A stretch of 43,412 nt of DNA from an uncultured Treponema sp. (GTDB lineage: Bacteria; Spirochaetota; Spirochaetia; Treponematales; Treponemataceae), in contig CAMNIU010000251.1 of the NCBI GenBank assembly GCA_946540605.1, positions 1 to 43,412 on the forward strand, written 5' to 3'. Below are positions 3,798 to 36,013 of the stretch, piece after piece. The position numbers and the translations under genes were made by a program. Below the pieces are notes generated by a model, which was given only the letters and a program-made list of their open reading frames with translations, searched no databases and was not told where the DNA came from. Numbering within the stretch: position 1 is the first letter of the stretch; each line of letters begins with the position of its first letter.

Positions 3798-3815
3798 GTA
3801 CACCTCTCTTTTTTT

Positions 3816-9141: not shown

Positions 9142-10211
9142 ATCAGTTCTAAGTCATCTCCAGCAAGATCCCAAAGTCTCTGTGAAATCTGCTCCAGCGG
9201 CAAAACTTCACAGGACCCTCCGTTTTCATAAGCAGCTTTTGGCATTCCATAAATTACACAGGTTTCAGAACTCTGGGTAATTGTATAAGCTCCTATATTT
9301 TTTAAATGCAGACATTCCTTTGCCCCATCTGCACCCATACCGGTAAGCACAACAGCAATACAGTCAGGCCCAAAAACATTAGCTGCGCTTTCAAACATTT
9401 TATCTACAGACGGTCGCAAAAAGTTGATTGGGGCATCATGATTTAAAATCATTCTAAAGCCATCTTCAGGATGAGCAACAAAAGTAAGATGAACATCTGA
9501 AGGTGCAAAATAAACATGTCCCGGAAGTGCGGCAGTATTATTCTGAGCAAGATGTACCGGAACATGAGCTTCCTGAGCCAGCCAGCTGATTAGATTTTTA
9601 TCAAAGAAGGAATTTATATGCTGAGTAATAAAAACAGGGAGCGTAAAATGTTTCCCCACCCCCTTAAGAAGTTCCAGCAATGCGCCGGGACCTCCGGTTG
9701 AAACTCCTACAAGAACAGCCTTAAATTTACGCTTACTGACATCTTTTGGTAAAACCTGAAGTGGAGCTGTATAACTGCCATCTTCATTTATAGAAGGAAC
9801 TACCGAAACAGGATGATTTTCAAAAAGGACCGAACACTTTATGTCTAAAATATGCTGCTCTAAATATTTTGTATATTCATTGATTTTTTCTGAAGAAAAA
9901 TTAATAAACTGCGGCATTTCCAGGTAATTTATATTCTTTGATGAATAATATGTTTTTTCACCTGGTGAGTAATAAATCAAAGTTGGAATTTCTGCAGTAT
10001 GACAATAATCTGTCAAAGCTGTACTTCTTTCACTGTCAAAAAGAGTTTTTTCCGTAATAATAAAATCCGGTTTGAGTTCTCGACTCAGAGATTTTAATGA
10101 GTTATAGGAAACTGCTTCTCCAACCCAGGAAAGCTTTTTAGTTTTTAGAATTATTTCTTTGAGAACTGAACGAATAATTGCCGAAGAATCTGCTACAAGA
10201 ACTTGAATCAT
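9138..10211 (-). CDS. cheB: CheB-type methylesterase with degenerate receiver domain
   Basis: About 357 aa. The C-terminal methylesterase domain has its full triad: S171 in GVSTGGPG, H198 in ITQHIN and D295 in GMGADGA. The N-terminal receiver-like domain (about 1-110) has lost key residues. The acidic pair is VLVADSS instead of VDDS, and the phosphoacceptor aspartate is replaced by E54 (DFIITEK). Phosphorylation control by CheA is therefore unlikely in the usual way; Glu may mimic the phosphorylated state. I start at the ATG at 10211, which has GGAGGAG just upstream and overlaps the previous TGA as ATGA. Confidence 0.9.
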   Translation of the reverse strand: MIQVLVADSSAIIRSVLKEIILKTKKLSWVGEAVSYNSLKSLSRELKPDFIITEKTLFDSERSTALTDYCHTAEIPTLIYYSPGEKTYYSSKNINYLEMPQFINFSSEKINEYTKYLEQHILDIKCSVLFENHPVSVVPSINEDGSYTAPLQVLPKDVSKRKFKAVLVGVSTGGPGALLELLKGVGKHFTLPVFITQHINSFFDKNLISWLAQEAHVPVHLAQNNTAALPGHVYFAPSDVHLTFVAHPEDGFRMILNHDAPINFLRPSVDKMFESAANVFGPDCIAVVLTGMGADGAKECLHLKNIGAYTITQSSETCVIYGMPKAAYENGGSCEVLPLEQISQRLWDLAGDDLELI

Positions 10212-10639
10212 AACTCCTCCAGAAAACAATCATTCAAATAATTTACTGTCTGTCGTACATCCATTAGCATTCTAAGCCGCTCTTCTTTGAAACTGCAGGC
10301 TAGAAAACCAAGCTTCTTAAACTGTTCGCTGTAAAAATCCGAAAAAAGCCCAAACTCTCTTAAATCTATCATACACACCTTGCATTCTTGAGTTGTCAGA
10401 AGAGACAATCGTTTGCCATTCACATCCTTTAAAACTATCATTGTTTTAATAGAAGATTCGCGGGGAATCTGTATAAACTGTGAGGCAATTTCATCAAAAT
10501 CAAAAAATCCCGATTTCTGATCGCTGAGCAGGGAAAGATTTAAATCTTTTACACCTACACTGGAAGCAACATAGTCACTTGGAATCAGAAAATCAATTTG
10601 AGGATAGGTAATACAAATGAATCTTTCAAGCTGCGGCAA
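10208..10639 (-). CDS. Divergent CheW-like coupling protein
   Basis: About 143 aa. The order of strands and the overall length fit a CheW/SH3-like fold (an ITYPQIDFLIPSDYV start, a TMIVLKD middle strand), but sequence similarity to CheW is weak. The only plausible start is TTG at 10639, overlapping the end of cheW by 14 nt, with AAAGAGA just upstream. The next in-frame ATG lies deep in the gene. The context (between cheW and cheB, with overlaps on both sides) supports a coupling or adaptor role. It could be an inhibitor or a docking variant rather than a true CheW. Confidence 0.65.
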   Translation of the reverse strand: MPQLERFICITYPQIDFLIPSDYVASSVGVKDLNLSLLSDQKSGFFDFDEIASQFIQIPRESSIKTMIVLKDVNGKRLSLLTTQECKVCMIDLREFGLFSDFYSEQFKKLGFLACSFKEERLRMLMDVRQTVNYLNDCFLEEL

Positions 10640-11117
10640 TCTCTTTACCTACTTTTTGTATAATATCCTGTACCTTTAAAACAAAAACATCCTGTCCGTT
10701 TATTGTAAGCGTACCTTCATAAAATTCAGATAATTCAGCTTCTGAAAAATGAACAACATCTTTTTCTGTCGCAGTGAAAAAGTCTTTTACATCGGTAATT
10801 CGGAAACAAGAATGGCTTTCATCATTCAAAACGATGAAGAGCATTGACTGAGGTGCCTCGTAACCTTCGAGTGCCGCAGGATTAATTACTACATAAGGAT
10901 CGCCGTAACGGTTAAGAACACCGTCTACATAAGGTGGAACAAAAGGAAGTGGGAATACGGTCGCATCCCGTAGGATTTCTTTTACATTTTCCGCAGGTAT
11001 TGCTAAACGTTTTTCTCCGATGGTGAAAATCAGCCAGACAGCTTTTTTGTCTTTTTGTTTTTCTTCTGTTTTTTCTATTTTAACATTTTTAATCAGTGAT
11101 AAAATCTCTTCTGCCAT
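10626..11117 (-). CDS. cheW: CheW-type coupling protein, first gene of chemosensory operon
   Basis: About 163 aa. A CheW domain is clear from AVWLIFTIGEKRLAIPAENV, the VFPLPFVPPYVDGVLNRYGD segment and the DVFVLKVQDII C-terminal strand. It joins CheA to the receptor array. I start at the ATG at 11117 (MAEEIL). The longer reading uses a TTG at 11156 that coincides with the -35 box of the promoter, so it cannot be translated from that transcript. The ATG lacks a Shine-Dalgarno sequence and lies 9 nt after the -10 box, so the mRNA is probably leaderless or nearly so. Confidence 0.88.
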   Translation of the reverse strand: MAEEILSLIKNVKIEKTEEKQKDKKAVWLIFTIGEKRLAIPAENVKEILRDATVFPLPFVPPYVDGVLNRYGDPYVVINPAALEGYEAPQSMLFIVLNDESHSCFRITDVKDFFTATEKDVVHFSEAELSEFYEGTLTINGQDVFVLKVQDIIQKVGKEIAAA

Positions 11118-11126
11118 AGTGTTTCT

Positions 11127-11156
11127 ATTATACAGTACAAAAGGAGAAATCGGCAA
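11127..11156 (-). promoter_or_regulatory. Promoter of the chemosensory operon
   Basis: On the minus strand, TTGCCG (11156-11151), an 18-bp spacer and a perfect TATAAT (11132-11127) lie 9 nt before the cheW ATG. The -35 box begins immediately after the glgP terminator, so the operon has its own start. Confidence 0.75.
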
Positions 11157-11158
11157 GA

Positions 11159-11184
11159 AAAAACGGGCCTTTCGGCCCGTTTTT
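11159..11184 (-). terminator. Rho-independent terminator after glgP
   Basis: A perfect 11-bp inverted repeat (11159-11169 with 11174-11184, loop of 4) has the G+C-rich core CGGGCC/GGCCCG and ends in a T-run on the minus strand. It starts 1 nt after the glgP stop codon. Confidence 0.92.
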
Positions 11185-11185
11185 A

Positions 11186-13630
11186 TTAGAACTCTACTTT
11201 TTTAAGATGCCAGATGTCGCGAACATAATCTTCGATTGTTCGATCGCTCGAGAACTTACCGGCATTGGCAATGTTCTTAAGTGCCATCTTCGCCCAGCCC
11301 TTCTTATCGGCATAAGCTGCAGCAATCTTCTCACGGGCTTTAGAGTAAGAATCAAAGTCTGCAAGAACATAGTAAACATCAGGACGCTGACCTTCTACAC
11401 CATAAATCAAAGAATCGTGAAGCTCCTTGAAAAGCTGATGGGTCGGGTCATAAGTACCGTCTACCAGCTGCTCAACAACCTTTGCAAGAGCTGGGTTGCG
11501 GTCCAGATATTCCTGTGGATTATAAGAATGTTCTGCTTCCATCTTCTTGATTTCTTCTGTAAGAAGTCCGAATACAAAGCCGTTTTCTTTTCCGGCTTCT
11601 TCGAAAATCTCAATGTTAGCACCATCCATTGTACCAAGTGTGAGTGCACCATTGAGCATAAACTTCATGTTTGAAGTTCCCGATGCTTCGAGACCTGCTG
11701 TAGAAATCTGTTCAGAAACATCTGCTGCAGGGAAGATTTTTTCTGCAACAGAAACGCGGTAGTTTTCTACGAATACAACGCGAATCTTTCCGCGAACACG
11801 GCGGTCGTTATTAATGCGTTCTGCAACAGTATTAATCAATTTGATGATTGATTTTGCACGGCGATAACCACTTGCTGCCTTTGCACCAAAAATGAAAGTA
11901 CGAGCCGGTGGGTTATAACTTGGGTCTTCTACAAGACGGTTGTAAATATACATAACGTGCAGAATATTCAAGAGCTGGCGTTTGTACTCATGGAGACGCT
12001 TAACCTGAACATCAAAAATGCTTTCCGGATCAAGGAACTCATTCTGAGCGTGCTTGAGGTAGTCTGCGAGAGCCTGCTTGTTTTCTGTTTTAATACGGAT
12101 AAGTTCATTGATTGATTCTTCATCATCAAGGAACTTTTCAAGGCCTTTAAGCTTAGACAAATCCTTTTCCCAGCCGTGACCAATGCGGTCTGTAATGAAC
12201 TTTGCAAGCTGTGGGTTTGCGTTCAAAAGCCAGCGTCGCTGTGTAATACCATTAGTCTTGTTATTGAATTTTTCTGGATAAAGGCTATACCAGTCTTTAA
12301 GTTCTGCAGTCTTCAAAAGTTCTGTATGAAGTTCTGCAACACCGTTTACGCTGAAGCAGGCGTGAATAGCCATCCATGCCATGTAAACCATATTGTTATG
12401 GATGATTGCCATATGCTCGTGCTTGTAGTAGTCGTTAGGGAATTTCTGGCGCAGCTCAATTACAAGGCGGCGGTTGATTTCTTCAACAATCTGATATACA
12501 CGAGGGAGAAGTCCCTGGAAGATTTCAATCGGCCACTTCTCAAGTGCTTCTGCAAGAATTGTGTGGTTTGTATAAGCAAAGGTATGAGTTACTACATCCC
12601 AGGCTTCATCCCAGCTTACATTGTATTCATCAATCAAGATACGCATAAGCTCAGGAATTGCAACTACCGGGTGAGTATCATTGAGCTGAATTACATGAAG
12701 GTCTGCAAACTTAGAGAAGTCTGTTCCATGGTCTGCAACATAGTGGCGAACAAGGTCCTGCAAAGAAGCAGAACTGAAGAAGTACTGCTGTTTAAGGCGG
12801 AGAGCCTTTCCGCTTGGACCGTTATCGTTAGGATAGAGAACGCGGCTGATATTTTCTGCGCTGTTCTGGCGCTCTACGGCACGGTTATAATCCATGTTGT
12901 TAAAAAGCTGAAGGTCAAATCCATTTGGAGATGAAGCCTGCCACAAGCGCAAAGTATTTACAGTTTTTGTATCAAAACCAATGATTGGCATATCATAAGG
13001 AGTTGCAGTTACTTCTTCTGCATTCTCAATGAAGAAACGTGGGTTTCCTTCCGGAGTTTTTCCGTAAGCAATGTTTCCGCCAAACTTTACGGTTACGGCA
13101 AGGTCTGAACGTTTAATTTCCCAAGGGTCGCGGTGCTGAAGCCAGTTATCCGGATATTCAACCTGGTAGCCGTCTTCTATGCGCTGCTCGAACATACCGT
13201 ATTCGTAACGGATTCCATATCCATGTCCAGGATAGTCGAGGGTTGCAAGAGAATCGAGGAAGCAGGCTGCGAGTCGGCCAAGACCACCATTACCAAGACC
13301 TGCATCAGGCTCTTCATCTTCAATCATATTGAAGTCGATGTTCATTTCTTTAAGAACTTCGGTTACAGACTCTTTTATACCACAGTTGATGAGATTGTTA
13401 CTTAAAGCTCGTCCCATCAAAAATTCTGCAGAAAGATAATAAAGCTGTTTTGTAGGCTTTTTATCATATTCATTGCGGGTTGCCATCCAGTTAGGCATAA
13501 TTAACTCAAGTGCCGAAGCAGATACAGCATCAAAAAGGTCATGTTTATTGGCCTGAGAAATATCCTTTCCATACTGACGGCGAAGTCGTGCAGAAAGGTT
13601 TGCCTTAAATTGTTCCTTGTCGAATTCCAT
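11186..13630 (-). CDS. glgP: Glycogen/maltodextrin phosphorylase
   Basis: 814 aa, the usual bacterial length. It removes glucose-1-phosphate from alpha-1,4-glucans with pyridoxal phosphate. Conserved blocks are visible: the N-terminal YYLSAEFLMGRAL, the glycine-rich DAGLGNGGLGRLAACFLDS, VIQLNDTHP, and the PLP-lysine region EASGTSNMKFMLNGALTLGT. The ATG has CCGGAGG 9 nt upstream. It follows glgX by 19 nt, so the two act together: phosphorolysis by GlgP and debranching by GlgX. Confidence 0.97.
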   Translation of the reverse strand: MEFDKEQFKANLSARLRRQYGKDISQANKHDLFDAVSASALELIMPNWMATRNEYDKKPTKQLYYLSAEFLMGRALSNNLINCGIKESVTEVLKEMNIDFNMIEDEEPDAGLGNGGLGRLAACFLDSLATLDYPGHGYGIRYEYGMFEQRIEDGYQVEYPDNWLQHRDPWEIKRSDLAVTVKFGGNIAYGKTPEGNPRFFIENAEEVTATPYDMPIIGFDTKTVNTLRLWQASSPNGFDLQLFNNMDYNRAVERQNSAENISRVLYPNDNGPSGKALRLKQQYFFSSASLQDLVRHYVADHGTDFSKFADLHVIQLNDTHPVVAIPELMRILIDEYNVSWDEAWDVVTHTFAYTNHTILAEALEKWPIEIFQGLLPRVYQIVEEINRRLVIELRQKFPNDYYKHEHMAIIHNNMVYMAWMAIHACFSVNGVAELHTELLKTAELKDWYSLYPEKFNNKTNGITQRRWLLNANPQLAKFITDRIGHGWEKDLSKLKGLEKFLDDEESINELIRIKTENKQALADYLKHAQNEFLDPESIFDVQVKRLHEYKRQLLNILHVMYIYNRLVEDPSYNPPARTFIFGAKAASGYRRAKSIIKLINTVAERINNDRRVRGKIRVVFVENYRVSVAEKIFPAADVSEQISTAGLEASGTSNMKFMLNGALTLGTMDGANIEIFEEAGKENGFVFGLLTEEIKKMEAEHSYNPQEYLDRNPALAKVVEQLVDGTYDPTHQLFKELHDSLIYGVEGQRPDVYYVLADFDSYSKAREKIAAAYADKKGWAKMALKNIANAGKFSSDRTIEDYVRDIWHLKKVEF

Positions 13631-24822: not shown

Positions 24823-25500
24823 ATGAGCAAACTTTCTTTATATCATGGTTCGCCTCAAATTGTAGAAAATCCTCTTTTTGGTTTCGGTAAATCATATAAT
24901 GATTATGGACAGGGCTTCTATTGCACACAAAATATTGAACTCGCAAAAGAATGGGCATGTCCTGGTATTGATGATGGATTTGCAAATTGTTACGAATTAG
25001 AAACAGATAATCTAAAGCTTCTTGATTTACAGGGTGCAGAATTTTCCACACTAAACTGGCTCGCCATTTTGGTAAATAACCGTAAATTCGATTTAGACAC
25101 ACCAATAATGAGACAGGGAGTTTATTATCTGAAAGAAAAGTTTCTTCCAGACATTTCAACATTTGATATTATCAAGGGATACAGGGCAGATGATTCATAT
25201 TTTTCTTTTGCCCGCGCATTTCTTTCAAACCAGATTTCATATAGCCAGCTTCGAACAGCAATGAAACTTGGAAAACTTGGCGAACAGATAATGCTAAAAA
25301 GCCAGAAATCATTTGAACAAATCAAATTTACAGGTTATGAAATTGCAGAAGGAAAGAAATATTATCCACTCCGAAAAGAACGTTTTAATAAAGCAAAAAA
25401 TGATTTCGCCGCATCACTTGAAACAGCAGATATTTCCGGCTTATTTATTCGTGACTTGATTTTAGAGGAGGTAAAACCAGATGATCCACGCTTACAGTAA
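24823..25500 (+). CDS. DUF3990 protein, ADP-ribosyltransferase-like (putative toxin)
   Basis: 225 aa. The N-terminal LSLYHGSP and GQGFYCTQNIELAKEWA blocks, the later GYRADDSYFSFA and the LGEQIMLKS block match DUF3990, a family placed with the ADP-ribosyltransferase fold. H8, Y33 and E154/Q155 are candidates for an H-Y-E-like active site. There is no signal peptide, so it acts in the cytoplasm. It overlaps the downstream HTH gene by 20 nt. The pairing with an HTH protein and the palindromic promoter suggest a toxin-antitoxin or anti-phage module. The target is unknown. Confidence 0.8.
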   Translation: MSKLSLYHGSPQIVENPLFGFGKSYNDYGQGFYCTQNIELAKEWACPGIDDGFANCYELETDNLKLLDLQGAEFSTLNWLAILVNNRKFDLDTPIMRQGVYYLKEKFLPDISTFDIIKGYRADDSYFSFARAFLSNQISYSQLRTAMKLGKLGEQIMLKSQKSFEQIKFTGYEIAEGKKYYPLRKERFNKAKNDFAASLETADISGLFIRDLILEEVKPDDPRLQ

Positions 25501-26146
25501 ATTATTTCTGCCAGATGTCCAGCAAAACTTAGGCTATGCCTGCCATTTTGCAATTAATTCCTGTGACGTTGAGCCAGACAGTTTTTACGATTTTTTTATA
25601 GCGTCTAAAGTCGCCAACGAAATAGAAACTGGTTCTCCGAAATTCGTGTGCGGTTATTCCGGCACAGAACTTGCATTAACAATTTTTAATCGAATCGGCT
25701 ACGCACCAAAGAAAATGGATTTCGACGATAATTCTATAATGTTTCATCGAAGCAAGGAATATTGGGCCGGATGGATACTCGCATATTATCAATGGATGAC
25801 AGGAATCAGATTTTCAAAGATTCGTGACATCATAAGTTTCAATCAGATTATTCAAATGTATCATCCTCTTCACGAAGCCCCAGAAGAAAAGTTTATTGAA
25901 GCAATGGATGAAATTGTTAGAAAAAACAATATGAACTTCGGCACAAACCTTCACCGCCTCCGCAAAGCCGCCGGCCTCACTCAAAAACAACTCGCCGAAC
26001 TCAGCGGTGTAAATCTCCGCACCCTCCAGCAATACGAAATCGGATCAAAAGACATAAACATGGCCAGCGGAAAATCAATCAACGCTCTGGCCCTTGCCCT
26101 TCACTGTAATTTCTACGATATTATGGAACTGGAAGATTTAGACTGA
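25481..26146 (+). CDS. HTH (XRE) protein paired with DUF3990, putative antitoxin
   Basis: 221 aa. The C-terminal XRE helix-turn-helix (about 153-210) reads LHRLRKAAGLTQKQLAELSG, then VNLRTLQQYEIG. The N-terminal 150 residues are a separate alpha-helical region (ELALTIFNRIG, EYWAGWILAYYQWMTG) that I cannot assign and that may bind the toxin. GAGGAGG 11 nt before the ATG lies inside the upstream gene, so the two are translationally coupled. The probable role is to neutralise DUF3990 and repress the operon through the palindrome at 24793-24816. Confidence 0.82.
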   Translation: MIHAYSKLFLPDVQQNLGYACHFAINSCDVEPDSFYDFFIASKVANEIETGSPKFVCGYSGTELALTIFNRIGYAPKKMDFDDNSIMFHRSKEYWAGWILAYYQWMTGIRFSKIRDIISFNQIIQMYHPLHEAPEEKFIEAMDEIVRKNNMNFGTNLHRLRKAAGLTQKQLAELSGVNLRTLQQYEIGSKDINMASGKSINALALALHCNFYDIMELEDLD

Positions 26147-26158
26147 TTATTTGGGAAT

Positions 26159-26494
26159 CTATCGAACTGAAGCAGACTTTTTATTCAACGTTTTCAAAAG
26201 ATTCAAAACAAGACTCCGTTCATCAGAAGAAAGCTTTTCAAAGGAATTCAGCACCTCAAGTTTTTCACCAGTAACAGCAATTGCGTTTTTATACTCTTTA
26301 CCAGTAACAAGATATTCAACAGAAACTTTAAGAGCTTTAGCTATTTTCTGTGCATTGTAAACACCGGGCTCTTGGGGATTGGTCATAAGATAATGGTCTA
26401 TTGTTCTCTTACCAACTCCTGATTTCTCAGCAAGCTCTTTAGTAGTAATTCCCTGATACTCCATTTCTTCCTTTAAATTTTCTCTGAATCCCAT
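26159..26494 (-). CDS. XRE-family transcriptional regulator
   Basis: 111 aa. The N-terminal HTH (about 5-65) shows LKEEMEYQGITTKELAEKSG, then VGKRTIDHYL and AQKIAKALKVSVEYLVTG. A short C-terminal helical tail follows. It is divergent from the surface lipoprotein operon (starts 118 nt apart) and converges on the DUF3990/HTH pair, 12 nt away. No Shine-Dalgarno sequence is present; TATTAT lies 6 nt before the ATG. Two CTTATTAG copies in the divergent gap are candidate operators, so it may control both itself and the lipoproteins. Confidence 0.85.
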   Translation of the reverse strand: MGFRENLKEEMEYQGITTKELAEKSGVGKRTIDHYLMTNPQEPGVYNAQKIAKALKVSVEYLVTGKEYKNAIAVTGEKLEVLNSFEKLSSDERSLVLNLLKTLNKKSASVR

Positions 26495-26508
26495 AAATAA
26501 ATAATACT

Positions 26509-26546
26509 CTTATTAGGGTAACAATATTATAAATTTGCCTTATTAG
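26509..26546. promoter_or_regulatory. Direct-repeat operators (CTTATTAG) in divergent gap
   Basis: CTTATTAG occurs at 26509-26516 and at 26539-26546, exactly 30 bp (about three helical turns) apart. The first sits just upstream of the XRE gene's -10, and the second overlaps the -35 and spacer of the lipoprotein promoter. Confidence 0.5.
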
Positions 26547-26563
26547 CGGTTGAGTGATAAAAT
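26535..26563 (+). promoter_or_regulatory. Promoter of the surface lipoprotein operon
   Basis: TTGCCT (26535-26540), a 17-bp spacer and TAAAAT (26558-26563). The predicted start near 26570 gives a leader of about 40 nt to the TTG start at 26612. Confidence 0.65.
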
Positions 26564-26601
26564 ATATACCTTGAAAGCGGTATGTCACTGTATTTTCACA
26601 C

Positions 26602-26610
26602 GGAGGAAGG
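26602..26610 (+). promoter_or_regulatory. Ribosome-binding site deciding a TTG start
   Basis: GGAGGAAGG is the strongest Shine-Dalgarno sequence in the region and precedes TTG at 26612 at proper distance. The ATG at 26582 has none. Confidence 0.7.
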
Positions 26611-26611
26611 A

Positions 26612-29389
26612 TTGAAAAAACTATTTAATGGGAAAATTAAATCTACAAAGTTTTCTGATATATTTTTGCTTTTATATTTTCTATCCCTAATATTACTTTC
26701 TTCTTGTGAAATAACAGTTTCTCCCAATATTCCTCCTTATGTTACAGATATAAAAATATCATCAATGCCGATAAAAAATGTTTATCATATAGGTGAATCA
26801 GTTGACTATACAGGCTTAAAAATATCCGCAACATATTCCGATGGAAGCGAAAAAGAAATTACAGATTACACACTTTCTTTAGAAGACGGAACAATTCTTT
26901 CAAAAGAACAGACTTATACAATAGAAATTAAGTATAAAGAGTTTTCTCAATCATTCACTATTGAAGTTTTACCAATAATGATAGGAATAAAGATAGCTTC
27001 ACTCCCTAAAAAGCTAACTTATTACGTTGGTGAACCAATTGATTACACAGGACTAGAAATTGCAGAAATATATTCTGATGGAACCATAAAAGAGATTGCT
27101 GACTACACCCTATCTTTAGGCACCGGAACAATTCTTTCAAAAGAACAATCATATACAATAGAAGTTCAATATAAGAGTTTCTCTCAAACTTTCACTATTG
27201 ATGTTTTACCGGTAATAACAGGAATAAAGATAGCTTCACTCCCTAAAAAGACAACCTACTACATTGGTGAAACAATCGATTATAATGGACTAAAAATTTC
27301 AGAAACATATTCCGATGGCTCCGTAAAAGAAACTACTAACTACACTCTATCTTTAGAAAACGGAACAATTCTTTCAAAAGAACAGACATATGTAATAGAA
27401 GTTCAATACAAGGGATTCTCTCAAACTTTCAACATCGAAGTTCTACCTGTTATAACAGGAATACAGATTCTTTCTCTTCCTCTAAAGATAACATATTACA
27501 TTGGTGATTCTGTTAATTATGATGGATTAAAAGTAGCAGTTACATATTCAAACGGTACCGAAGAAGAAATTACGAATTACGAGATTTCCTTAAAGAGCGG
27601 AACTGTTCTTTCAAAAGAACAAACCTGCATTATAACAGTTCAATATAAAGATTTTTCTCAATCTTTCAATATTGAAATCTTACCAATAATGACTGGTATA
27701 AAGATAACCTCGCTTCCTAACAAGACAGTCTACTATGACAGGGAAGCTATAGATTATACAGGCCTAAAAATATCAGAAACATATTCCGATGGAACCGAAA
27801 AAGAAATTACAGATTATACTCTTTCCCTAAAAAAAGGCTCAATCCTTACATCAAAACAAATAAACAAAATAGAGGTCAATTATAAGGGATTTTCTCAAAC
27901 TTTCAATATTGATGTTTTACCTGTTATTACAGGGCTAAATATAAAATCACTTCCAGAGAAAACAGTTTACTACGTTGGAGAAACTGTTAATTACGCAGGA
28001 TTAAAAATAACAGCTTCATATTCAGATGACAGCGAAAAAGAAATTACAGATTACACACTTTCTTTGCATAATGGAACGCCACTTGCAAAAGAGGAAAACT
28101 ACGTCATAAATGTACAGTACGAGGGATATTCTCAAGCATTCACTATTGAAGTGTTACCAGTAATGACAGGAATAAAACTGCTCTCTCTTCCACTAAAAAC
28201 AACCTATTATGTTGGTGATTCAGTAAATTACAATGGATTAAAAATTGCAGCTACTTATTCAAATGGAAACGAGAAAGAAATTACAGACTACACTCTTTCC
28301 TTTGAAAATGGAGCGACTCTTTCTAAAGAGCAGACTTACAAAATAGAAGTTCAGTACAAGGAGTTTTCTCAATTTTTCAATATAGAAGTTTTACCTGTAA
28401 TGACAGGTATAAAGATAGCTTCTTTGCCAGCAAAAACAGTTTATTATGATGGAGAATCTTTCAATTATGATGGTCTAAAAATATCATTGACATATTCAGA
28501 TAAGACAGAAAAAGAAATTACAGATTATACAGTTTCTTTACCAAACGGAACGATTCTTTCTTCAAAGCAAAACTACACAATAGAAGTTCTGTATAAGAAT
28601 TTTTCAAAAGCATTCAACATAGAAGTACTGCCAGTAATGACAGGTATAAAAGTTCTCTCTCTTCCACTAAAAACAACCTATTACGTTGGAGAATGTATCA
28701 ATTATGATGGATTAAAAATTCTAGCTACTTACTCAGACGGCAGTGAAAAACAACTTACAAACTATACACTTTCTTTTGCAAATGGAACGACTCTTTCAAA
28801 AGAACAAACGTATACAATCGAAGTTCAGTACAATGAGTTTTCACAAAACTTCAACATTGAAGTATTACCAGTAATGACAGGAATAAAGATAACTTCTCTG
28901 CCAGAAAAAACTGTCTATCACGTTAGTGAATCTGTTGATTATACAGGGCTAAAAATAGCTGCTACCTATTCTGATACTCATGAGGAAGAAATTACTGACT
29001 ATACACTTTCCTTAAATAACGGAAGTAATCTTACAAGAGCTCAAACATATACAGTTATAATTCAATACAATGGATTTTCTACATCATTTGATATAGAAAT
29101 ACTTCCGAACAAAGTCAGTGTAATTCAAGTCACACTACCAGAACATTTTGATGTAGAAAACTTATTATCGTATGAAGAAGATAACCATAAATTCATCGCA
29201 AAAGCTGGATTTACAGAATATATATGGTGGTTAGATTCAGAAAAACTGTCAAACAAAACAGCAATCTATTCCTTAAATACCTCAAATCTTTCCTCGGGTT
29301 ATCATTTTTTAATGATTCTCGTAAAAACTTCTGATGGCGAAAGATTTTCTGCAACAGCAACCATTAATATTTTGAGAGAGGAGCGATAA
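26612..29389 (+). CDS. Surface lipoprotein with ten tandem group-3 Ig-like repeats
   Basis: About 925 aa, starting at TTG 26612. This yields MKKLFNGK, a hydrophobic stretch and the lipobox ILLSSC with C32. Ten consecutive 79-residue repeats (DNA 26741-29110) each read roughly GIKIxSLPxKTxYYVGE, NYxGLKIxATYSDG, EITDYTLSL, GTxLSKEQTYTIEVQY, FSQxFNIEVLPV. This is the bacterial Ig-like group 3 (Big_3) pattern. A last domain of about 90 aa has the YIWWLDSEK motif shared with the next protein. It is probably an exposed stalk or adhesin. The near-identity of the units makes length variation by recombination likely. It is the first of three cotranscribed lipoprotein genes. Confidence 0.88.
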   Translation: MKKLFNGKIKSTKFSDIFLLLYFLSLILLSSCEITVSPNIPPYVTDIKISSMPIKNVYHIGESVDYTGLKISATYSDGSEKEITDYTLSLEDGTILSKEQTYTIEIKYKEFSQSFTIEVLPIMIGIKIASLPKKLTYYVGEPIDYTGLEIAEIYSDGTIKEIADYTLSLGTGTILSKEQSYTIEVQYKSFSQTFTIDVLPVITGIKIASLPKKTTYYIGETIDYNGLKISETYSDGSVKETTNYTLSLENGTILSKEQTYVIEVQYKGFSQTFNIEVLPVITGIQILSLPLKITYYIGDSVNYDGLKVAVTYSNGTEEEITNYEISLKSGTVLSKEQTCIITVQYKDFSQSFNIEILPIMTGIKITSLPNKTVYYDREAIDYTGLKISETYSDGTEKEITDYTLSLKKGSILTSKQINKIEVNYKGFSQTFNIDVLPVITGLNIKSLPEKTVYYVGETVNYAGLKITASYSDDSEKEITDYTLSLHNGTPLAKEENYVINVQYEGYSQAFTIEVLPVMTGIKLLSLPLKTTYYVGDSVNYNGLKIAATYSNGNEKEITDYTLSFENGATLSKEQTYKIEVQYKEFSQFFNIEVLPVMTGIKIASLPAKTVYYDGESFNYDGLKISLTYSDKTEKEITDYTVSLPNGTILSSKQNYTIEVLYKNFSKAFNIEVLPVMTGIKVLSLPLKTTYYVGECINYDGLKILATYSDGSEKQLTNYTLSFANGTTLSKEQTYTIEVQYNEFSQNFNIEVLPVMTGIKITSLPEKTVYHVSESVDYTGLKIAATYSDTHEEEITDYTLSLNNGSNLTRAQTYTVIIQYNGFSTSFDIEILPNKVSVIQVTLPEHFDVENLLSYEEDNHKFIAKAGFTEYIWWLDSEKLSNKTAIYSLNTSNLSSGYHFLMILVKTSDGERFSATATINILREER
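26741..29110 (+). repeat. Ten tandem 237-bp coding repeats
   Basis: In-frame units of 237 bp encode 79 aa each, with no spacer between them. Units 7 and 9 and units 2 and 3 look most alike at DNA level. Such an array can expand or contract by recombination without breaking the frame. Confidence 0.88.
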
Positions 29390-29391
29390 AA

Positions 29392-31767
29392 ATGAAAAAC
29401 AAAAAAACTCTTTTTTCAATTATAGCACTAGGATTAATGTTCGCTTCCTGCAAACAGCTAACTTTAAATTTAGAAAAAGAAATTGAAAAATCAGAAAACT
29501 CTGCATCCTTTCTAAAAGTTACTTTACAGGAAGTACCATCAAGAACCATTCTTCCAGAAAAATACAATTATACTGACTTCGATTACGAATTATATGGTAC
29601 AAATTCTGATGGTAACCAATCCTTATTACAAACCTGGACAAACTATGAAGATATGACCTCCTCAAAGGTTAATATAAAGACGGGTGAATGGATTTTTGAA
29701 CTTCATGCTATAAAAAATTCTGAAATTGCACTAACAGGAGTTTATTCCACAAGCATTCAGTTAGGAGAAAATGCCGTCTCTTTCACACTAACTGAGTCAT
29801 CATATGGCAATGGAAATTTATTTGTTGAGTTTTATGTTTCTAAAAATATAGCGCAAAAAATTGAAGCAAAGCTGCTTTCAGAATATGGTTCTTCTATAGA
29901 AGGGTTCGAAAATACGAACTTACTTACAGAATATGATTCTACAAAAGAAAAAAACAAAGCGATTTATCAACTAACCAACATTCCAAAAGGATATTATCTG
30001 GTTCGCTTTTTCCTTTATAAAAATGAAACTGATACAAATTATTCCTCAGTTTATAACACATTTGCTCGTATTGAACCATGTTTCACAAGTTACGGAGTTG
30101 AAGAAATAGATTTATCAGAAAATCTGTACGAAGTATCTATTCCACTTGATCATATAGAAATTTTGAATATACCAAATACCACAGTCTATTATGCAGAACA
30201 ACATCTATCTCTTGAAGGTCTGGAAGTAAACGCTTGTTATAAAGACGGAAGAAAAGAAAAAATAACAAACTACACAACCTCAATGGAAGAAGGAGACCTA
30301 CTTGCTCCAACAGATAAACTTATTACTATTGCTTATGGAGAGTTTACAGATTCTTTCGAAATATCAGTAATACCAAATACTATTGATGGTATTTACGTAA
30401 CAGTCCCGTCTCTTGAACAAGACATATCAGGTTTATTGTCTTATTCAAACACAACAAACATTTTTACAGCAAAGAGTGGATTTTCTGCTTATGAATGGTG
30501 GCTTGATGGAGAGAAAGAAAATAATCAAACACGTTATTTTACAGTTAATTCATCGCTACTATCATCTGGAAATCATAATCTAATGCTTGTTGTTAAAGAT
30601 TATTCTGGAAAGAAATATTCCGCCTCATCTGAATTTGTTATTTATGAAAACTCATTATCATTTATCAAAGTAACAATTGAAAATCTCACTGAAATTTCAA
30701 GCTTACTATCTTTTGATGAAACCTCATTTACTGCAACTTCTGGATTTATGAAATACATTTGGTGGCTGGATGATAAACTACAGACTGTAAGCGATAACAT
30801 ATTTACATTACCGGACAATCTTAATCCCGGCCATCACACTGTAACAGTAATTGTCAGAGATAATCAAAATAATTATTTTTCAGAATCAAAAACCGTTTCT
30901 GTTACAAAAGATAATCTCAAATTAGATGAAAATATCAATACAAATATCACTGTAAAAATACTTGATTATCAAGATAATAACGATTTGCTAACGTATGATG
31001 ATAAATTGCAACGTTTTGTAGCAAAAAAAGGCTATACCTCTTATGTTTGGTGGATTGATAGCACAAAGCAAAATGAAACCAAAAACTATTATACACTCAC
31101 AAATACTATCAACAAAGGCAATCATACAATTGTAATTGTAGTTCAAGATTCTAAAGGAAATATTTATTCAGCCTCAAGAAGTTTTTACATTTCTGCAGAG
31201 AATTTACAATTAGATGATATTAGCGACACGACTAATATTTATGTAAGTTTTCCAAACTACGATGAGGTCATTGATTTCCTAACCTATGATAATGAAAACC
31301 AGAAATTTGAAGCTCAAAAGGGATATCAAACCTATTCCTGGTGGATTGACGGTACAAAAATAACCGAAACAAACAAATCATTCAAATTGAAAGAATCTGA
31401 TTATTCAATTGGCAATCATACTGTAATGCTTGTTGTAACAGATTCAAATGGTAATACATATTCAGCTTCAAAAATTTTTACAATATCTGGAAATTACATG
31501 GACACATATTGCGCAAATACTGCTATCTATGTAGTTCTACCAACATATCAGGAAATTGAAGATTTATTGATTTATGACGATTCGCTTTTCATTGCAAAAT
31601 CAGGCTTTTCAACTTATACATGGTGGATTGATGACATTAAAACATCTCAAACAGGAAAGAGATTCAATATTAGTAATCTTAGTAAAGGAAACCACAATCT
31701 TATGATTGTTGTTGAAACGACATCAGGCGCAGTGTATTCCTCTACTGCTGAAATAGCAATTTATTAG
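29392..31767 (+). CDS. Surface lipoprotein with one Ig-like and five 'WWxD' repeats
   Basis: 791 aa. The signal peptide ends in the lipobox MFASC (C20). Residues about 40-250 form a domain shared with the downstream BspA-like protein (RTILP near the start, GNGNLFVEFYV, IPKGYYLVRFFLYKN, FARIEPCFTSYGVEEI). One Ig-like group-3 domain (about 252-328) matches the repeats of the upstream protein. Five domains of about 90 aa follow, each with SGFxxYxWWLD or WWID, then GNHxLMLVVxDxxGxxYSAS. The start lies 2 nt after the previous stop, with GAGAGGAGCG upstream. Likely a surface-exposed binding protein; the ligand is unknown. Confidence 0.85.
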   Translation: MKNKKTLFSIIALGLMFASCKQLTLNLEKEIEKSENSASFLKVTLQEVPSRTILPEKYNYTDFDYELYGTNSDGNQSLLQTWTNYEDMTSSKVNIKTGEWIFELHAIKNSEIALTGVYSTSIQLGENAVSFTLTESSYGNGNLFVEFYVSKNIAQKIEAKLLSEYGSSIEGFENTNLLTEYDSTKEKNKAIYQLTNIPKGYYLVRFFLYKNETDTNYSSVYNTFARIEPCFTSYGVEEIDLSENLYEVSIPLDHIEILNIPNTTVYYAEQHLSLEGLEVNACYKDGRKEKITNYTTSMEEGDLLAPTDKLITIAYGEFTDSFEISVIPNTIDGIYVTVPSLEQDISGLLSYSNTTNIFTAKSGFSAYEWWLDGEKENNQTRYFTVNSSLLSSGNHNLMLVVKDYSGKKYSASSEFVIYENSLSFIKVTIENLTEISSLLSFDETSFTATSGFMKYIWWLDDKLQTVSDNIFTLPDNLNPGHHTVTVIVRDNQNNYFSESKTVSVTKDNLKLDENINTNITVKILDYQDNNDLLTYDDKLQRFVAKKGYTSYVWWIDSTKQNETKNYYTLTNTINKGNHTIVIVVQDSKGNIYSASRSFYISAENLQLDDISDTTNIYVSFPNYDEVIDFLTYDNENQKFEAQKGYQTYSWWIDGTKITETNKSFKLKESDYSIGNHTVMLVVTDSNGNTYSASKIFTISGNYMDTYCANTAIYVVLPTYQEIEDLLIYDDSLFIAKSGFSTYTWWIDDIKTSQTGKRFNISNLSKGNHNLMIVVETTSGAVYSSTAEIAIY

Positions 31768-31792: not shown

Positions 31793-34700
31793 ATGAAAAT
31801 CAAAAACTTAATGTTCATTTTCAGTACATTACTGTTAGCAACTGCTTTTAATGGATGCAGTAATAACAATGAAGATGTTACTTTGAATTATGAAGACCGA
31901 GCGTATATTACGGTCAACATTTCAAATGAAACTGCAAGAACAGTTCTTCCAACAGCCCTTTCTCGTGATGAACTTTCTTATGTCTTAAAAGGTAGAAAAG
32001 CATCCGAAAGTGCCATGACACAGCTTGATTCATGGGCTAATTATTCTGCTTTACAAAACATGTCCAAAATTGAACTTTCAGTTGCTGATTGGTATTTTAC
32101 CTTGGAAGCATCCAAAGGAGATACTGTAGTTCTCACTTCAACCATTTCAAAATCAATCAGCTATGGTAACAACAGTTTATCATTTACTCTCAATGAAGTT
32201 TCCACAGGAAACGGTAGTTTAAAGGTTAGCTTAAAATATCCTGCAAATGGCATTGCAAAGGTTACAGCCGGACTTTTTGATTTAAATGGAACTGCTATAA
32301 CTGGTTATACTGCACAAAATCTTACAGCAACTACAACTAACGGAAAATCTACAGTCACATACAATAAGACTTCTGTTGCAAAAGGTTCATATATTCTTCG
32401 TTTTTATCTATATCAAAATGCATCTGATTCAACATATACAAATACTTACAGTGTAATAGTTCGTATTGCTCCTGGTTGTGCTACCACAGGTGCAGAAGAA
32501 ATCGAAAAACTCAATACAGTCTATTCAATTACGTATGAATTAAATGAAGGTAATTGGGACGATGATATTTACATTCCACTTTCTTATACAAACTATACAA
32601 CAATTACATTACCTGTTACCTTATCAAAAGAAGGAGCTGTATTTGCCGGTTGGTATGATAATGCAGAACTTACAGGTCAAAAAGTAACTGAAATACCTTT
32701 GGGAACTGATGGAAATAAAACTTATTATGCAAAATGGATTACTGAACTTACCTGTACAGCGGCAGAGTTTTATTCAGCATTTAAGGGATATAATGATGGT
32801 ACCGTTACTGTAAAAATTACAGATACAAATCCATCAATGAGTTATATTAGAACTGCTCTTGATTCAACTGGCGTAAAGGTAAATCTGGATTTGTCTGAAT
32901 GTACAAGTTTAACATCTATTCCAGGAAGAACTTTTGCGAATTGTGAAAATCTTGCAGGAATTACACTTCCTTCTTCAGTAACTTCCATTGCAGATTCTGC
33001 TTTTATGAATAATAAAATTATTACATCTGTTGTAATTCCAAATTCAGTTTTGAGCATTGGCAAACAAGCATTCTCCGGTTGTAGCGCGCTAACAACAATA
33101 AATCTTGGAACTGGAGTAAGAACACTTGGATATGGAGCTTTTGAAAATTGCACCTCTCTTACTTCAATTGAAGTTCCTGACAGTATAACCTCTTTGGGCG
33201 AACACGCATTCTCTGGTTGTTCAAAATTGGAAAGCGTAGAACTTGGCGAAAATGTTACTACAATTAATTCATATTGTTTCTCTGGTTGTTCAAAACTCAC
33301 ATCTGTAACAATGAGTGATAATGTCGCTGTTATTTCAAGCAATGCATTTTCAGATTGTAAAAAGCTTGCTACATTAACACTTTCTGCAGCATTGGAAAAT
33401 ATCGGCAAAAATGCGTTTGCAAATTGTGATGAACTTTCTGAACTTATAATTCCAGAAACTGTAGTTTCAATAGACAATAACGCTTTTGAAAACTGTAAAA
33501 AACTCACAACCCTTGTTGTTCCAAATAATGTTACATCAATTGGAAGTTCTGTTTTCAAAGGATGTAAAAACATTGCAATAACAATAAACAATACACTTCT
33601 TAACTCTATTGCGCCCGCAGAAGACAGTACAAGCAAAGAAAATACTCTCCTTGCAGGATGTAAAAACTACACAATTACAGTTACTGGCGGAACTACGACA
33701 TTAGCTGCATACTGCTTCTATAATTGTACAGAATTAAAGTCTATTACATTCCCATCTAATTTAAAAGAAATAGGTGCATATTGTTTTTATAATTGTACAG
33801 GATTATCTGATTTGACATTGCCAAGTGGATTAACAACAGTAGGAAATTATGCTTTTGCAAAGTGTGATGGTTTTACAACAATTTCTTTACCGAACACAGT
33901 TACAAGTATTGGAAAGCACGTCTTCTCAGCATGTTCGAATTTGCAGGATCTTACTTTGTCTAATACATTGCAAAGTATCGGTACATATGCATTCGAAAAA
34001 TGTATAAAACTTCCTAGAATTGTAATTCCAGATTCAGTTACAACAATTGGAGAATACGCATTTAAGGAAACAAGCAATATTGAAATTACGATAAAGAATG
34101 GTCTTTTGACAAGTTTTGCGCCTACATCAATATCTTCATCTTTTACAAATTATTTGTTCAAAGACTGTTTAAATTATTCTATTATTCTCTCATCCGCATC
34201 AACTACTATTAGTGATTATGCATTTGCATATTGTTCATCCCTTAAATCAATTACTATTCCAGAAACAGTTCTTTCTATAGGAGAATATGCATTCTATAAG
34301 TGTAGTTCTTTGGAAGGTGTTGCCGTACCTAGTTCAGTTACCTCAGTTGGTAAATCTGCATTTTATGGTTGTTCATCTGCCAAAGAAATTACCTTACCAA
34401 ATGATATTGAAGTTATAAACACACATACCTTCTATGACTGTTCTTCACTTGAATCTATTCAAATTCCAGCAAATACAACAATTATAGAAAATTATGCTTT
34501 TGCCAAATGCTATGCATTAGAAACAATCGAAATCCCAAATCAAGTTTCTAGTATTGGGTATTTTGCGTTCTCAGATTGTTCAGAACTTACTAATATAACC
34601 CTTGGTATCAGAGTTGAAAGTATTGGGCAATGCGCATTTAAGAATTGTTCACGTCTTACAAGCATAGTTATTCCTAATAATGTAACAAGTATTGGAACAA

Positions 34701-35164
34701 ATTTATTCAATGGTTGTGCAGCACTTGAAGAAGTTACTGTTCCATTCCTAGGTTTGAAAGCAACTACAAAAAGTTATAGTTCAGATACTTTGTTTGGCAC
34801 TTTTTTTGGTACAGTTGTTGACAATAATGCAACAGCTTTTACTTCTGTTAAACAAAGCTCTTCTGTATATCAAATACCAAAATCACTTACAAAAGTAACT
34901 ATAATCGGCAACATGCTCTTCTACAGATCATTCCAGAATTGTGAAATGCTTTCGGAAATTATAATCGGCGATGGTGTAACAGAAATTCACCAAGAAGTTT
35001 TCTCTGGTTGTTCCAATCTTAATAATATTACATTTATTGATACGACAAGTAATTGGCTCAAAGACAATGAAAACATCGGCCCCATGTCTGCAACAGATAC
35101 AAATGCAAACGCAACTTTATTATGTAGCAACGCAAACTCGATTTTCACAAAAGAAAGCAATTAG
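31793..35164 (+). CDS. BspA-like leucine-rich-repeat surface lipoprotein
   Basis: 1123 aa. The signal peptide ends in the lipobox AFNGC (C22). An N-terminal domain of about 200 aa (ARTVLP, GNGSLKVSLKY, VAKGSYILRFYLYQN, VRIAPGCATTGAEEI) is homologous to that of the preceding protein. A Listeria-Bacteroides (Flg_new) repeat (about 243-316) ends in FAGWYDNAELTG and TYYAKW. About 26 BspA-type LRR units of 23 aa (about 364-1090) follow the pattern LTSIxIPNSVTSIGxxAFxGCS, interrupted by longer variant units near NTLLNSIAP, NGLLTSFAP and PFLGLKATT. TpLRR/BspA proteins bind host proteins or other bacteria. The ribosome-binding site is AAGGAG. Confidence 0.92.
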   Translation: MKIKNLMFIFSTLLLATAFNGCSNNNEDVTLNYEDRAYITVNISNETARTVLPTALSRDELSYVLKGRKASESAMTQLDSWANYSALQNMSKIELSVADWYFTLEASKGDTVVLTSTISKSISYGNNSLSFTLNEVSTGNGSLKVSLKYPANGIAKVTAGLFDLNGTAITGYTAQNLTATTTNGKSTVTYNKTSVAKGSYILRFYLYQNASDSTYTNTYSVIVRIAPGCATTGAEEIEKLNTVYSITYELNEGNWDDDIYIPLSYTNYTTITLPVTLSKEGAVFAGWYDNAELTGQKVTEIPLGTDGNKTYYAKWITELTCTAAEFYSAFKGYNDGTVTVKITDTNPSMSYIRTALDSTGVKVNLDLSECTSLTSIPGRTFANCENLAGITLPSSVTSIADSAFMNNKIITSVVIPNSVLSIGKQAFSGCSALTTINLGTGVRTLGYGAFENCTSLTSIEVPDSITSLGEHAFSGCSKLESVELGENVTTINSYCFSGCSKLTSVTMSDNVAVISSNAFSDCKKLATLTLSAALENIGKNAFANCDELSELIIPETVVSIDNNAFENCKKLTTLVVPNNVTSIGSSVFKGCKNIAITINNTLLNSIAPAEDSTSKENTLLAGCKNYTITVTGGTTTLAAYCFYNCTELKSITFPSNLKEIGAYCFYNCTGLSDLTLPSGLTTVGNYAFAKCDGFTTISLPNTVTSIGKHVFSACSNLQDLTLSNTLQSIGTYAFEKCIKLPRIVIPDSVTTIGEYAFKETSNIEITIKNGLLTSFAPTSISSSFTNYLFKDCLNYSIILSSASTTISDYAFAYCSSLKSITIPETVLSIGEYAFYKCSSLEGVAVPSSVTSVGKSAFYGCSSAKEITLPNDIEVINTHTFYDCSSLESIQIPANTTIIENYAFAKCYALETIEIPNQVSSIGYFAFSDCSELTNITLGIRVESIGQCAFKNCSRLTSIVIPNNVTSIGTNLFNGCAALEEVTVPFLGLKATTKSYSSDTLFGTFFGTVVDNNATAFTSVKQSSSVYQIPKSLTKVTIIGNMLFYRSFQNCEMLSEIIIGDGVTEIHQEVFSGCSNLNNITFIDTTSNWLKDNENIGPMSATDTNANATLLCSNANSIFTKESN

Positions 35165-35209: not shown

Positions 35210-36013
35210 ATGAAAATGCAAATCATTACAGTACAAGGTAAGAGTAATTCAGGAAAAACGACACTAATAAGAAATATTTTTCTAAAATTGATAAAAAATG
35301 GGGCAGGAATTGTTTTCTTTGAAAATAGAGGTGAAAGTAAACAAGATTTTCTTGCTGTTATAATATGGAAATCTCGAACTATTGCATTTTGCAGTGCTGG
35401 TGACATTGATACTCCAGATTGGAATATCGTTGAAGAAGGATTGAAACTTTCCGAAAAATATAATGCTAATATTTTGATAAATGCATTATCCATCGACCAG
35501 GGACTAACAATCGATGGATATAAAAACTTATTAAAAACACATTATAACATTATAAATTTCCAAGAAGATGTTTTTACAATAGAATCTTCAAAAAGACAAA
35601 AAAGAATAAATTGCAAAAGAATTTTAAAATCCATCAAACAAGCTTTGCCATGCTTCTATTTAGACGTTTCTTCTATCAAGAGTAATAAATATAAAAAAGA
35701 AAAAAGAAGAAAGTATAATTTTACATTCTATACATTACTAGTTATCCTGATAACGATATTAGCAAATGCAGTTCTAACTTTCTATTCTAAAAATGATTTA
35801 TCATTCCTTATTTTTAGCGGTATTACAATAATATGCTTAAATGTTGCAATTATAACTTCTTTCTTCAAGCAAAAGAAAAAAACAAAATACAAAGCAAAAC
35901 TTTTATCAAAAGATCTTTATAATACAGAAGATATTCTTATACAAAATGGAACATCATCTAAGGATATAGCATATGTTCATAAAGCTACAGCAAATGCAAT
36001 GGCGGATATTTGA
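35210..36013 (+). CDS. P-loop NTPase with two C-terminal TM helices, unknown function
   Basis: 267 aa. A Walker A motif GKSNSGKT (10-17) follows an opening beta strand (MQIITVQ). No convincing Walker B is seen; NANILINALSID is a possible one. Residues about 125-170 are very basic. Two TM helices lie at about 171-193 and 198-220, followed by a cytoplasmic tail. Starts at 35210 or at the ATG at 35216 are both possible, and the ribosome-binding site (GAGAAAG) is weak. It is 45 nt behind the BspA-like gene and abuts the next membrane-protein gene. I do not recognise a family. Confidence 0.7.
   Translation: MKMQIITVQGKSNSGKTTLIRNIFLKLIKNGAGIVFFENRGESKQDFLAVIIWKSRTIAFCSAGDIDTPDWNIVEEGLKLSEKYNANILINALSIDQGLTIDGYKNLLKTHYNIINFQEDVFTIESSKRQKRINCKRILKSIKQALPCFYLDVSSIKSNKYKKEKRRKYNFTFYTLLVILITILANAVLTFYSKNDLSFLIFSGITIICLNVAIITSFFKQKKKTKYKAKLLSKDLYNTEDILIQNGTSSKDIAYVHKATANAMADI

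Follow-up and report, generated by a model that had tools for sequence, protein, structure and literature searches.

The PKD domains (PF00801, PF18911) of ColG/ColH, PrtV and AAVR are Ig-like sandwiches of 80-90 aa that usually carry GDG and are used in tandem in extracellular proteins. Spirochaetes are abundant in the gut and rumen, and to our knowledge their contact with fibre or host surfaces is poorly understood. Among described surface systems, fibrillar adhesins join a stalk to an adhesive domain (excerpts of PMC9210967), and all-beta domains of the gut SGBPs are regarded as spacers (excerpts of PMC7157763). In the type V (fimbrillin) pili of Bacteroidetes (Mfa1, Mfa2, FimA), an arginine protease trims the fimbrillins and thereby uncovers a groove for the strand of the next subunit (excerpts of PMC5954841).

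Here we analyse a cluster of three lipoprotein genes (p1, p2 and p3) in a 43,412-nucleotide stretch of DNA from an uncultured Treponema sp. (hereafter the window). We consider this cluster to be probably a fibrillar-adhesin cassette, in which six repeat units of PKD/Ig type would form the stalk and tip of surface proteins anchored by an N-terminal lipid. Its likeness to fibrillar adhesins, as the excerpted source presents them, lies in a long repeat stalk, a putative anchor signal and an LRR domain of putatively adhesive type, and the ten Big_3 domains of p1 form the kind of stalk by which such adhesins are recognised. Unlike in those adhesins, the functions are split over three successive lipoproteins, with LRR_5 on p3, a separate polypeptide. 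The repeated domain is an unnamed new branch of a known fold, and the main interest of the locus may lie above the domain itself, in a recurrent pairing of genes.

The p1-p2-p3 cluster

p1, p2 and p3 are successive plus-strand ORFs with gaps of 2 nt and 25 nt between them (Table 1), and all three begin with lipoprotein-type signals, recognised as lipobox-like by reading the sequence only. In a Pfam scan, p1 holds ten Big_3 stretches (E 5.6e-75), p3 matches LRR_5 (E 3.3e-188) and Flg_new (E 1.7e-11), and the Big_3-like domain of p2 scores 15 bits, under the cut-off of 21.2. The Big_3 copies of p1 measure about 237 nt each, adjacent copies being 64-83% identical. The N-terminal domains (NTDs) of p2 and p3 share 32% identity (E 1.4e-33), and residues 254-417 of p2 match the last Big_3 domain plus the unit of p1 at 40%; in its make-up p2 resembles a p3-type front fused to a p1-type back. 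Two other genomes (G384 and G392) lack p2 at this place, and a p1-like gene stands directly before an NTD-LRR gene.

Table 1. Positions of the cluster features in the window
Feature	Position	Strand	Description
XRE-type regulator	26159..26494	-	divergent from p1; also adjoins the cluster in L049
p1	26582..29389	+	lipoprotein, 935 aa; LLSSC lipobox, Cys 42 (lipobox read from sequence); ten Big_3 domains, then C-terminal PKD-like unit A1
Big_3 (Ig-like group 3) array	26744..29107	+	ten domains; period 237 nt
Unit A1, PKD-like	29108..29386	+	WWLD; last 93 aa of p1
p2	29392..31767	+	lipoprotein ORF, 791 aa; FASC lipobox, Cys 20; NTD, one Big_3-like domain, five PKD-like units
p2 NTD	29506..30138	+	about 210 aa; SRTILP basic motif; profile A6 E 5.7e-62
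p2 Big_3-like domain	30151..30375	+	single, p1-type; matches every p1 Big_3
Unit B1, PKD-like	30376..30648	+	WWLD; p2
Unit B2, PKD-like	30649..30912	+	WWLD; p2
Unit B3, PKD-like	30937..31200	+	WWID; p2
Unit B4, PKD-like	31228..31491	+	WWID; p2; structure predicted
Unit B5, PKD-like	31516..31764	+	WWID; C-terminus of p2
p3	31793..35164	+	lipoprotein ORF, 1123 aa; FNGC lipobox, Cys 22; NTD, Flg_new repeat, long BspA-type LRR_5 array
p3 NTD	31901..32545	+	ARTVLP motif; profile A6 E 1.3e-71

The initial annotation had proposed six repeats, one ending p1 and five in p2, and these proved to be true homologues: all 15 unit-versus-unit alignments gave z values of 17.5-30.7 (300 residue shuffles each) at 30-51% identity. 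The units are 83-93 aa long, typically about 88 aa, and share 14 invariant columns, including Y36, W38, W39, D41, G62, H64 and V70 (first-row numbering). Among the motifs said to be shared, the double Trp is present in all six units, but GNHxLMLVV and G(N/K)xYSAS are consensus forms that are not invariant, B2 having GHHTVTVIV and NNYFSES instead. The span given for the family (29110-31767) holds the units but also takes in the p2 signal peptide, the NTD of about 210 aa and the Big_3-like domain.

The same cluster is found in L049, a contig of MAG RUG14753 from an uncultured Spirochaetaceae, which we take from its name to be rumen-derived. The p1-p2-p3 order is kept there, p2 is 70% identical and a divergent XRE gene lies beside p1; genes beyond the cluster differ from those of the window. 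Units of the two loci pair by position in six of six cases (starred support in five of the six; A1 92/88), and dN/dS between them is 0.18-0.30 per unit. Given this position-wise pairing, we conclude that multiplication of the units predates the separation of the two species, and that purifying selection has kept them distinct ever since. The number of Big_3 domains in p1, ten in the window versus two in L049, may differ for biological reasons or through assembly collapse. An origin from a phage or plasmid was rejected, as p2 had no match there and none in viral contigs.

The XRE gene, a possible regulator of the cluster, is 86% identical over 93 aa to positions 7762-7484 of L049 (tblastn). Similar DNA to that between the XRE gene and p1 (26495-26581) is present in L049, and a P-loop-type protein encoded downstream of p3 (35210-36013) has a 33% identical gene at the same place there. 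A DUF3990 protein (24823-25500) adjoins an XRE gene at 25481-26146, and the pair may be a toxin/antitoxin-like arrangement. An Rfam scan of the window gave no match, and a promoter scan gave a signal no richer than in shuffled sequence.

Fold and spread of the repeated domain

The initial annotation had guessed at an Ig/PKD-type fold but could not assign it to a named family. None of the six single units reached a Pfam gathering score (PF00801/PF18911 PKD included), the best single unit for BiPBP_C (PF06832) giving 21.9 against a cut-off of 26.8 bits. The absence of a named family therefore stands for single units but not for p2 as a whole, which passes the cut-offs of BiPBP_C (46.3 vs 26.8 bits) and Big_13 (40.6 vs 27) because the scores of its repeats add up; PKD_4 on whole p2 gave 18.7 bits (cut-off 27). 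When 25 family members were scanned singly (E up to 0.1), nine touched BiPBP_C, six Big_13, and three each PKD, PKD_3, PKD_4 and K319L-like_PKD. BiPBP_C, the best Pfam match of p2, is the C-terminal domain of penicillin-binding protein 1C; unlike that protein, p1 and p2 show no transglycosylase or transpeptidase domain in the Pfam scan.

The fold itself is better defined by profile and model comparisons, which bear out the guess. A profile built from a 25-row alignment of the family (A2) matched, among solved structures, SGBP-B 6e57 (whole-chain E 4.1e-6, best stretch i-E 1.1e-4), the KIAA0319L PKD (E 5.1e-6) and endoglucanase 2c26 (E 5.7e-6). Carcinoembryonic antigen 1e07, which had the best E-value with A2, was set aside as a sum of weak repeats (best single stretch i-E 0.26), and p2 itself had no convincing direct relative in the PDB. 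An AlphaFold2 model of a unit (12 rows, B4) has seven strands at pLDDT 79. With this model, PKD domains make up most of the top Foldseek rows at probability 1.00 and E 0.007-0.1, none passing 0.001, and VIA reaches Z 7.4 (2.6 A over 72 residues), a value below 8 that, by VIA's own caution, may mean only a common arrangement. On these profile matches and the predicted model, we assign the units with reasonable confidence to the PKD/Ig-superfamily beta-sandwiches.

Like PKD and PKD_4 domains, the units appear as Ig-like sandwiches of similar length with YxW at strand C and GxHxxxLxVxD at strands F-G; unlike them, they have L/I-D-G for GDG, an N-terminal extension and a second Trp, and reach no Pfam cut-off. 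The best convincing profile match is the near-N-terminal all-beta domain of Bacteroides SGBP-B (6e57; also 7kwb), which shares the lipoprotein context, but no SusC/SusD partner was seen here and p2 lacks a known glycan-binding C-terminal domain.

A search of the genus with the strict six-row profile (E 0.001) found units or relatives in 29 of 98 genomes; for the order the figure was 37 of 116 (E 1e-4) and for the phylum 19 of 198, the window's own genome being counted each time. Describing them as a 'WWxD' repeat family proved too narrow, since the family is really one of YxWxxDG, spread through the order. In relatives the domain comes after Flg_new or Big_3 repeats, and in several proteins it is also internal, ahead of LRR.

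The two tryptophans

In the A2 alignment W38 is present in 25 of 25 rows, while the position after it is W in the six window rows only and elsewhere I, R, K, T, Y, M, Q or L. Among 172 distinct units from all fetched loci, this second position is Y in 37, T in 21, K in 17 and W in 16, with other residues in the remainder, and a YxWxxDG-type motif is absent from eight. Of the 16 WW units, 14 belong to the p1/p2 lineage (window, L049/G449, G384, G392), and every one of the 12 units in the two closest species (window and L049) retains the double Trp. The two WW units outside this lineage, in L277 (minus strand, near 9350) and L224 (plus strand, near 2761), have a longer loop before WW. We infer that the first Trp is a near-universal core residue of the fold and the second mostly a lineage trait, which, from strand alternation, would face outward. 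The second Trp could bind a ligand, pack on the N-terminal extension or touch a neighbour, and contact with a neighbouring domain or partner protein is more likely than contact with sugar.

These counts bear directly on an earlier suggestion that the double Trp may form a carbohydrate- or protein-binding site, for which, as regards sugar, we find no support. On the sugar reading the units would be carbohydrate-binding modules, with the paired Trp on strand C as a putative glycan-binding face, and the occurrence of both Trp in each of the 12 units from the two species, the presence of domains of the glycan-binding SGBP-B and Sas6 among the profile and fold relatives, and a closest named relative that is a rumen MAG all speak for it. 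We nevertheless judge it distinctly improbable: the first Trp is a core residue, the second is W in few units of the wider family, the SGBP match falls on a near-N-terminal domain of a kind that excerpts of PMC7157763 treat as spacers, and the proteins scanned revealed no carbohydrate-enzyme gene next to the cluster. A pure spacer role does not explain the frequent placing of the domain at the extreme C-terminus directly before an NTD gene, or the retention of the second Trp in 12 of 12 units.

The NTD and a recurrent gene pair

A 22-row profile of the NTD of p2 and p3 (A6, E 1e-15) matched 101 of the 196 genomes searched in the genus, up to 15 times in one genome. The NTD carries a basic motif of consensus (S/A)R-T-(A/V)-L-P, and R[TSNDA] occurs at this motif in 92 of 102 NTDs versus 106 of 495 control windows. 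In the fetched loci related to p2, an ORF that ends in the PKD-like domain is repeatedly and closely followed by an ORF that starts with the NTD. Among the 56 best-scoring NTD genes (those of the window and of G449 excluded), 42 have an upstream PKD-like match, which in 30 lies within 12 aa of the ORF end, commonly with 9-26 nt left to the NTD start. Most of the 14 others show a divergent look-alike by eye, and three have unrelated neighbours.

In a larger set of 105 NTD genes, from which genes sharing an identical 60-residue stretch had been removed, a first model, not trained on these loci although its training loci were already drawn from some of these genomes, places the domain at the end of the upstream ORF in 66, and a second-round model does so in 79, a count that is partly circular since this model was trained on the same loci. 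The 26 without it include upstream ORFs in which an internal PKD-like domain is followed by terminal LRR, and others that finish in FGE-sulfatase-like sequence or in a divergent version. When two independent profile lists were compared over 116 genomes of the order (G000 rows left out), a PKD match ended no more than 450 nt upstream of 21 of 51 NTD matches, versus 1 of 51 on the mirror side; seen from the other partner, 21 of 101 PKD matches have an NTD after them and 80 have no recognised one. We conclude that the pairing is real and order-wide and that the domain is used elsewhere too. It is apparently unreported so far, and among open-library papers we found none describing it. In G201 (C2, C18, C46), small PKD-like ORFs of 135-281 aa lie downstream, not upstream, of the NTD gene.

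p2 and proteins in L223, L224, L239, L272 and others begin with the NTD and finish with the PKD-like domain, and such proteins tend to have another NTD gene after them. Among 90 complete NTD proteins, 15 have both a C-terminal PKD-like domain and a next NTD gene, 4 the domain only, 11 the next NTD gene only and 60 neither (Fisher p 3.6e-7, which is optimistic as the genomes are related). Chains with a first, a middle and a last member occur in the window, L223, L224 and L272.

What the pairing may mean

Ig-like C-terminal domains act as sorting/export signals in type IX secretion, and the C-terminal domain here might likewise be such a signal, neither stalk nor binder. The 30 of 56 loci with the domain close to the ORF end would fit this, and three of 25 family members give weak Por_Secre_tail matches (best E 0.012) that would fit it too. 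Against it stand the five tandem copies in p2, the internal position before LRR in other proteins and the lipoprotein-type signals on p1, p2 and p3, and we regard it as highly improbable. A reading in which the C-terminal PKD-like domain binds the NTD of the next protein, linking p1, p2 and p3 head to tail, with no NTD on the first protein and no C-terminal PKD-like domain on the last, explains the gene order best; it is in keeping with the upstream domain of 66 or, by the second-round model, 79 of 105 NTD genes, the excess over the mirror side, the association in the 90 proteins and the first-middle-last chains. The mirror-tree correlations give it no such help, however: in 11 middle proteins r is 0.70 and 0.79 at the junctions versus 0.68 within the same protein and 0.73 at non-junctions, and over 71 junctions (6 of 77 removed as near-duplicates) r is 0.58, no better than in non-docking controls, and therefore co-inheritance suffices. 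Moreover, of the order's 101 PKD matches, 80 lack a recognised NTD after them, several proteins have the domain internal before LRR and yet an NTD gene next, and the geometry is awkward if both proteins remain lipid-anchored. Docking of this kind thus seems unlikely to us.

A bolder form of the same idea, an order-wide surface assembly in which the C-terminal PKD-like domain engages the next fimbrillin-like NTD, by docking or by strand donation, to give pilus-like head-to-tail chains, we hold to be quite unlikely. Cleavage at the basic (S/A)R-T-x-L-P site would perhaps precede docking, and LRR or FGE/C-type-lectin-like modules would be presented at the chain end; if true, a type V pilus-like principle would operate outside Bacteroidetes. 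The basic residue just after the first strand of the NTD sits in a place like that of the arginine-protease site of fimbrillins, and the NTD model (pLDDT 66) weakly resembles Mfa2 and fimbrillin-like proteins (Mfa2 5nfi: Foldseek E 4.2e-5, TM 0.22-0.25; VIA Z 7.2, rmsd 9.1). Unlike type V pili, the cluster has LRR effector domains. Membership of the NTD in a fimbrillin family failed the sequence profile tests, with no genome of 39 having Mfa_like_1 (PF13149) over cut-off and no Mfa/FimA family found among 22 NTDs at E 0.01. C11 protease, by its specificity a candidate arginine protease, occurs in 44 of 59 genomes, 29 of 33 with the NTD and 15 of 26 without (p 0.015, from a tally by hand that takes genomes unlisted for the NTD as negative and is uncorrected for kinship); this association is too weak to use.

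The reading we prefer is the fibrillar-adhesin cassette, which draws on the repeat homology, the fold class given by profile and model, the lipobox-like signals, conservation in L049 and the recurrent gene order. In such a cassette, p1, with its ten Big_3 domains and terminal unit, and p2, with its NTD, Big_3-like domain and five units, would be elongated fibres, and the BspA-type LRR of p3 the likely ligand-binding part. The first Trp of each unit would lie in the core, and the second, lineage-specific one would point outward and make contact. Surface display, extended shape and adhesion are what we infer for these proteins. The recurrent pairing and its upstream rule supply testable pairs for how spirochaetes build surface complexes.

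Other chains

The window's own genome holds a second chain, L223 (G000:C169:5000-21000), with ORFs at 1462-3888, 3900-8216 and 8229-13433. In order, these encode a Flg_new lipoprotein, a protein running from NTD to PKD-like domain, and one running from NTD to an FGE-sulfatase-like C-terminus. C-type-lectin folds are DGR targets in Treponema, according to the title of a reference in PMC8144416; the window's own genome, 85% complete, gave no match to reverse transcriptase (PF00078), and a DGR link for the FGE modules was rejected. Chain members in L276 and L279 (G043:C57, G449:C14) also end in FGE-sulfatase-like sequence (RGGSF...GFRVVRTITE; family assigned by eye), which is found on the upstream and the NTD protein alike and replaces LRR or the PKD-like domain.
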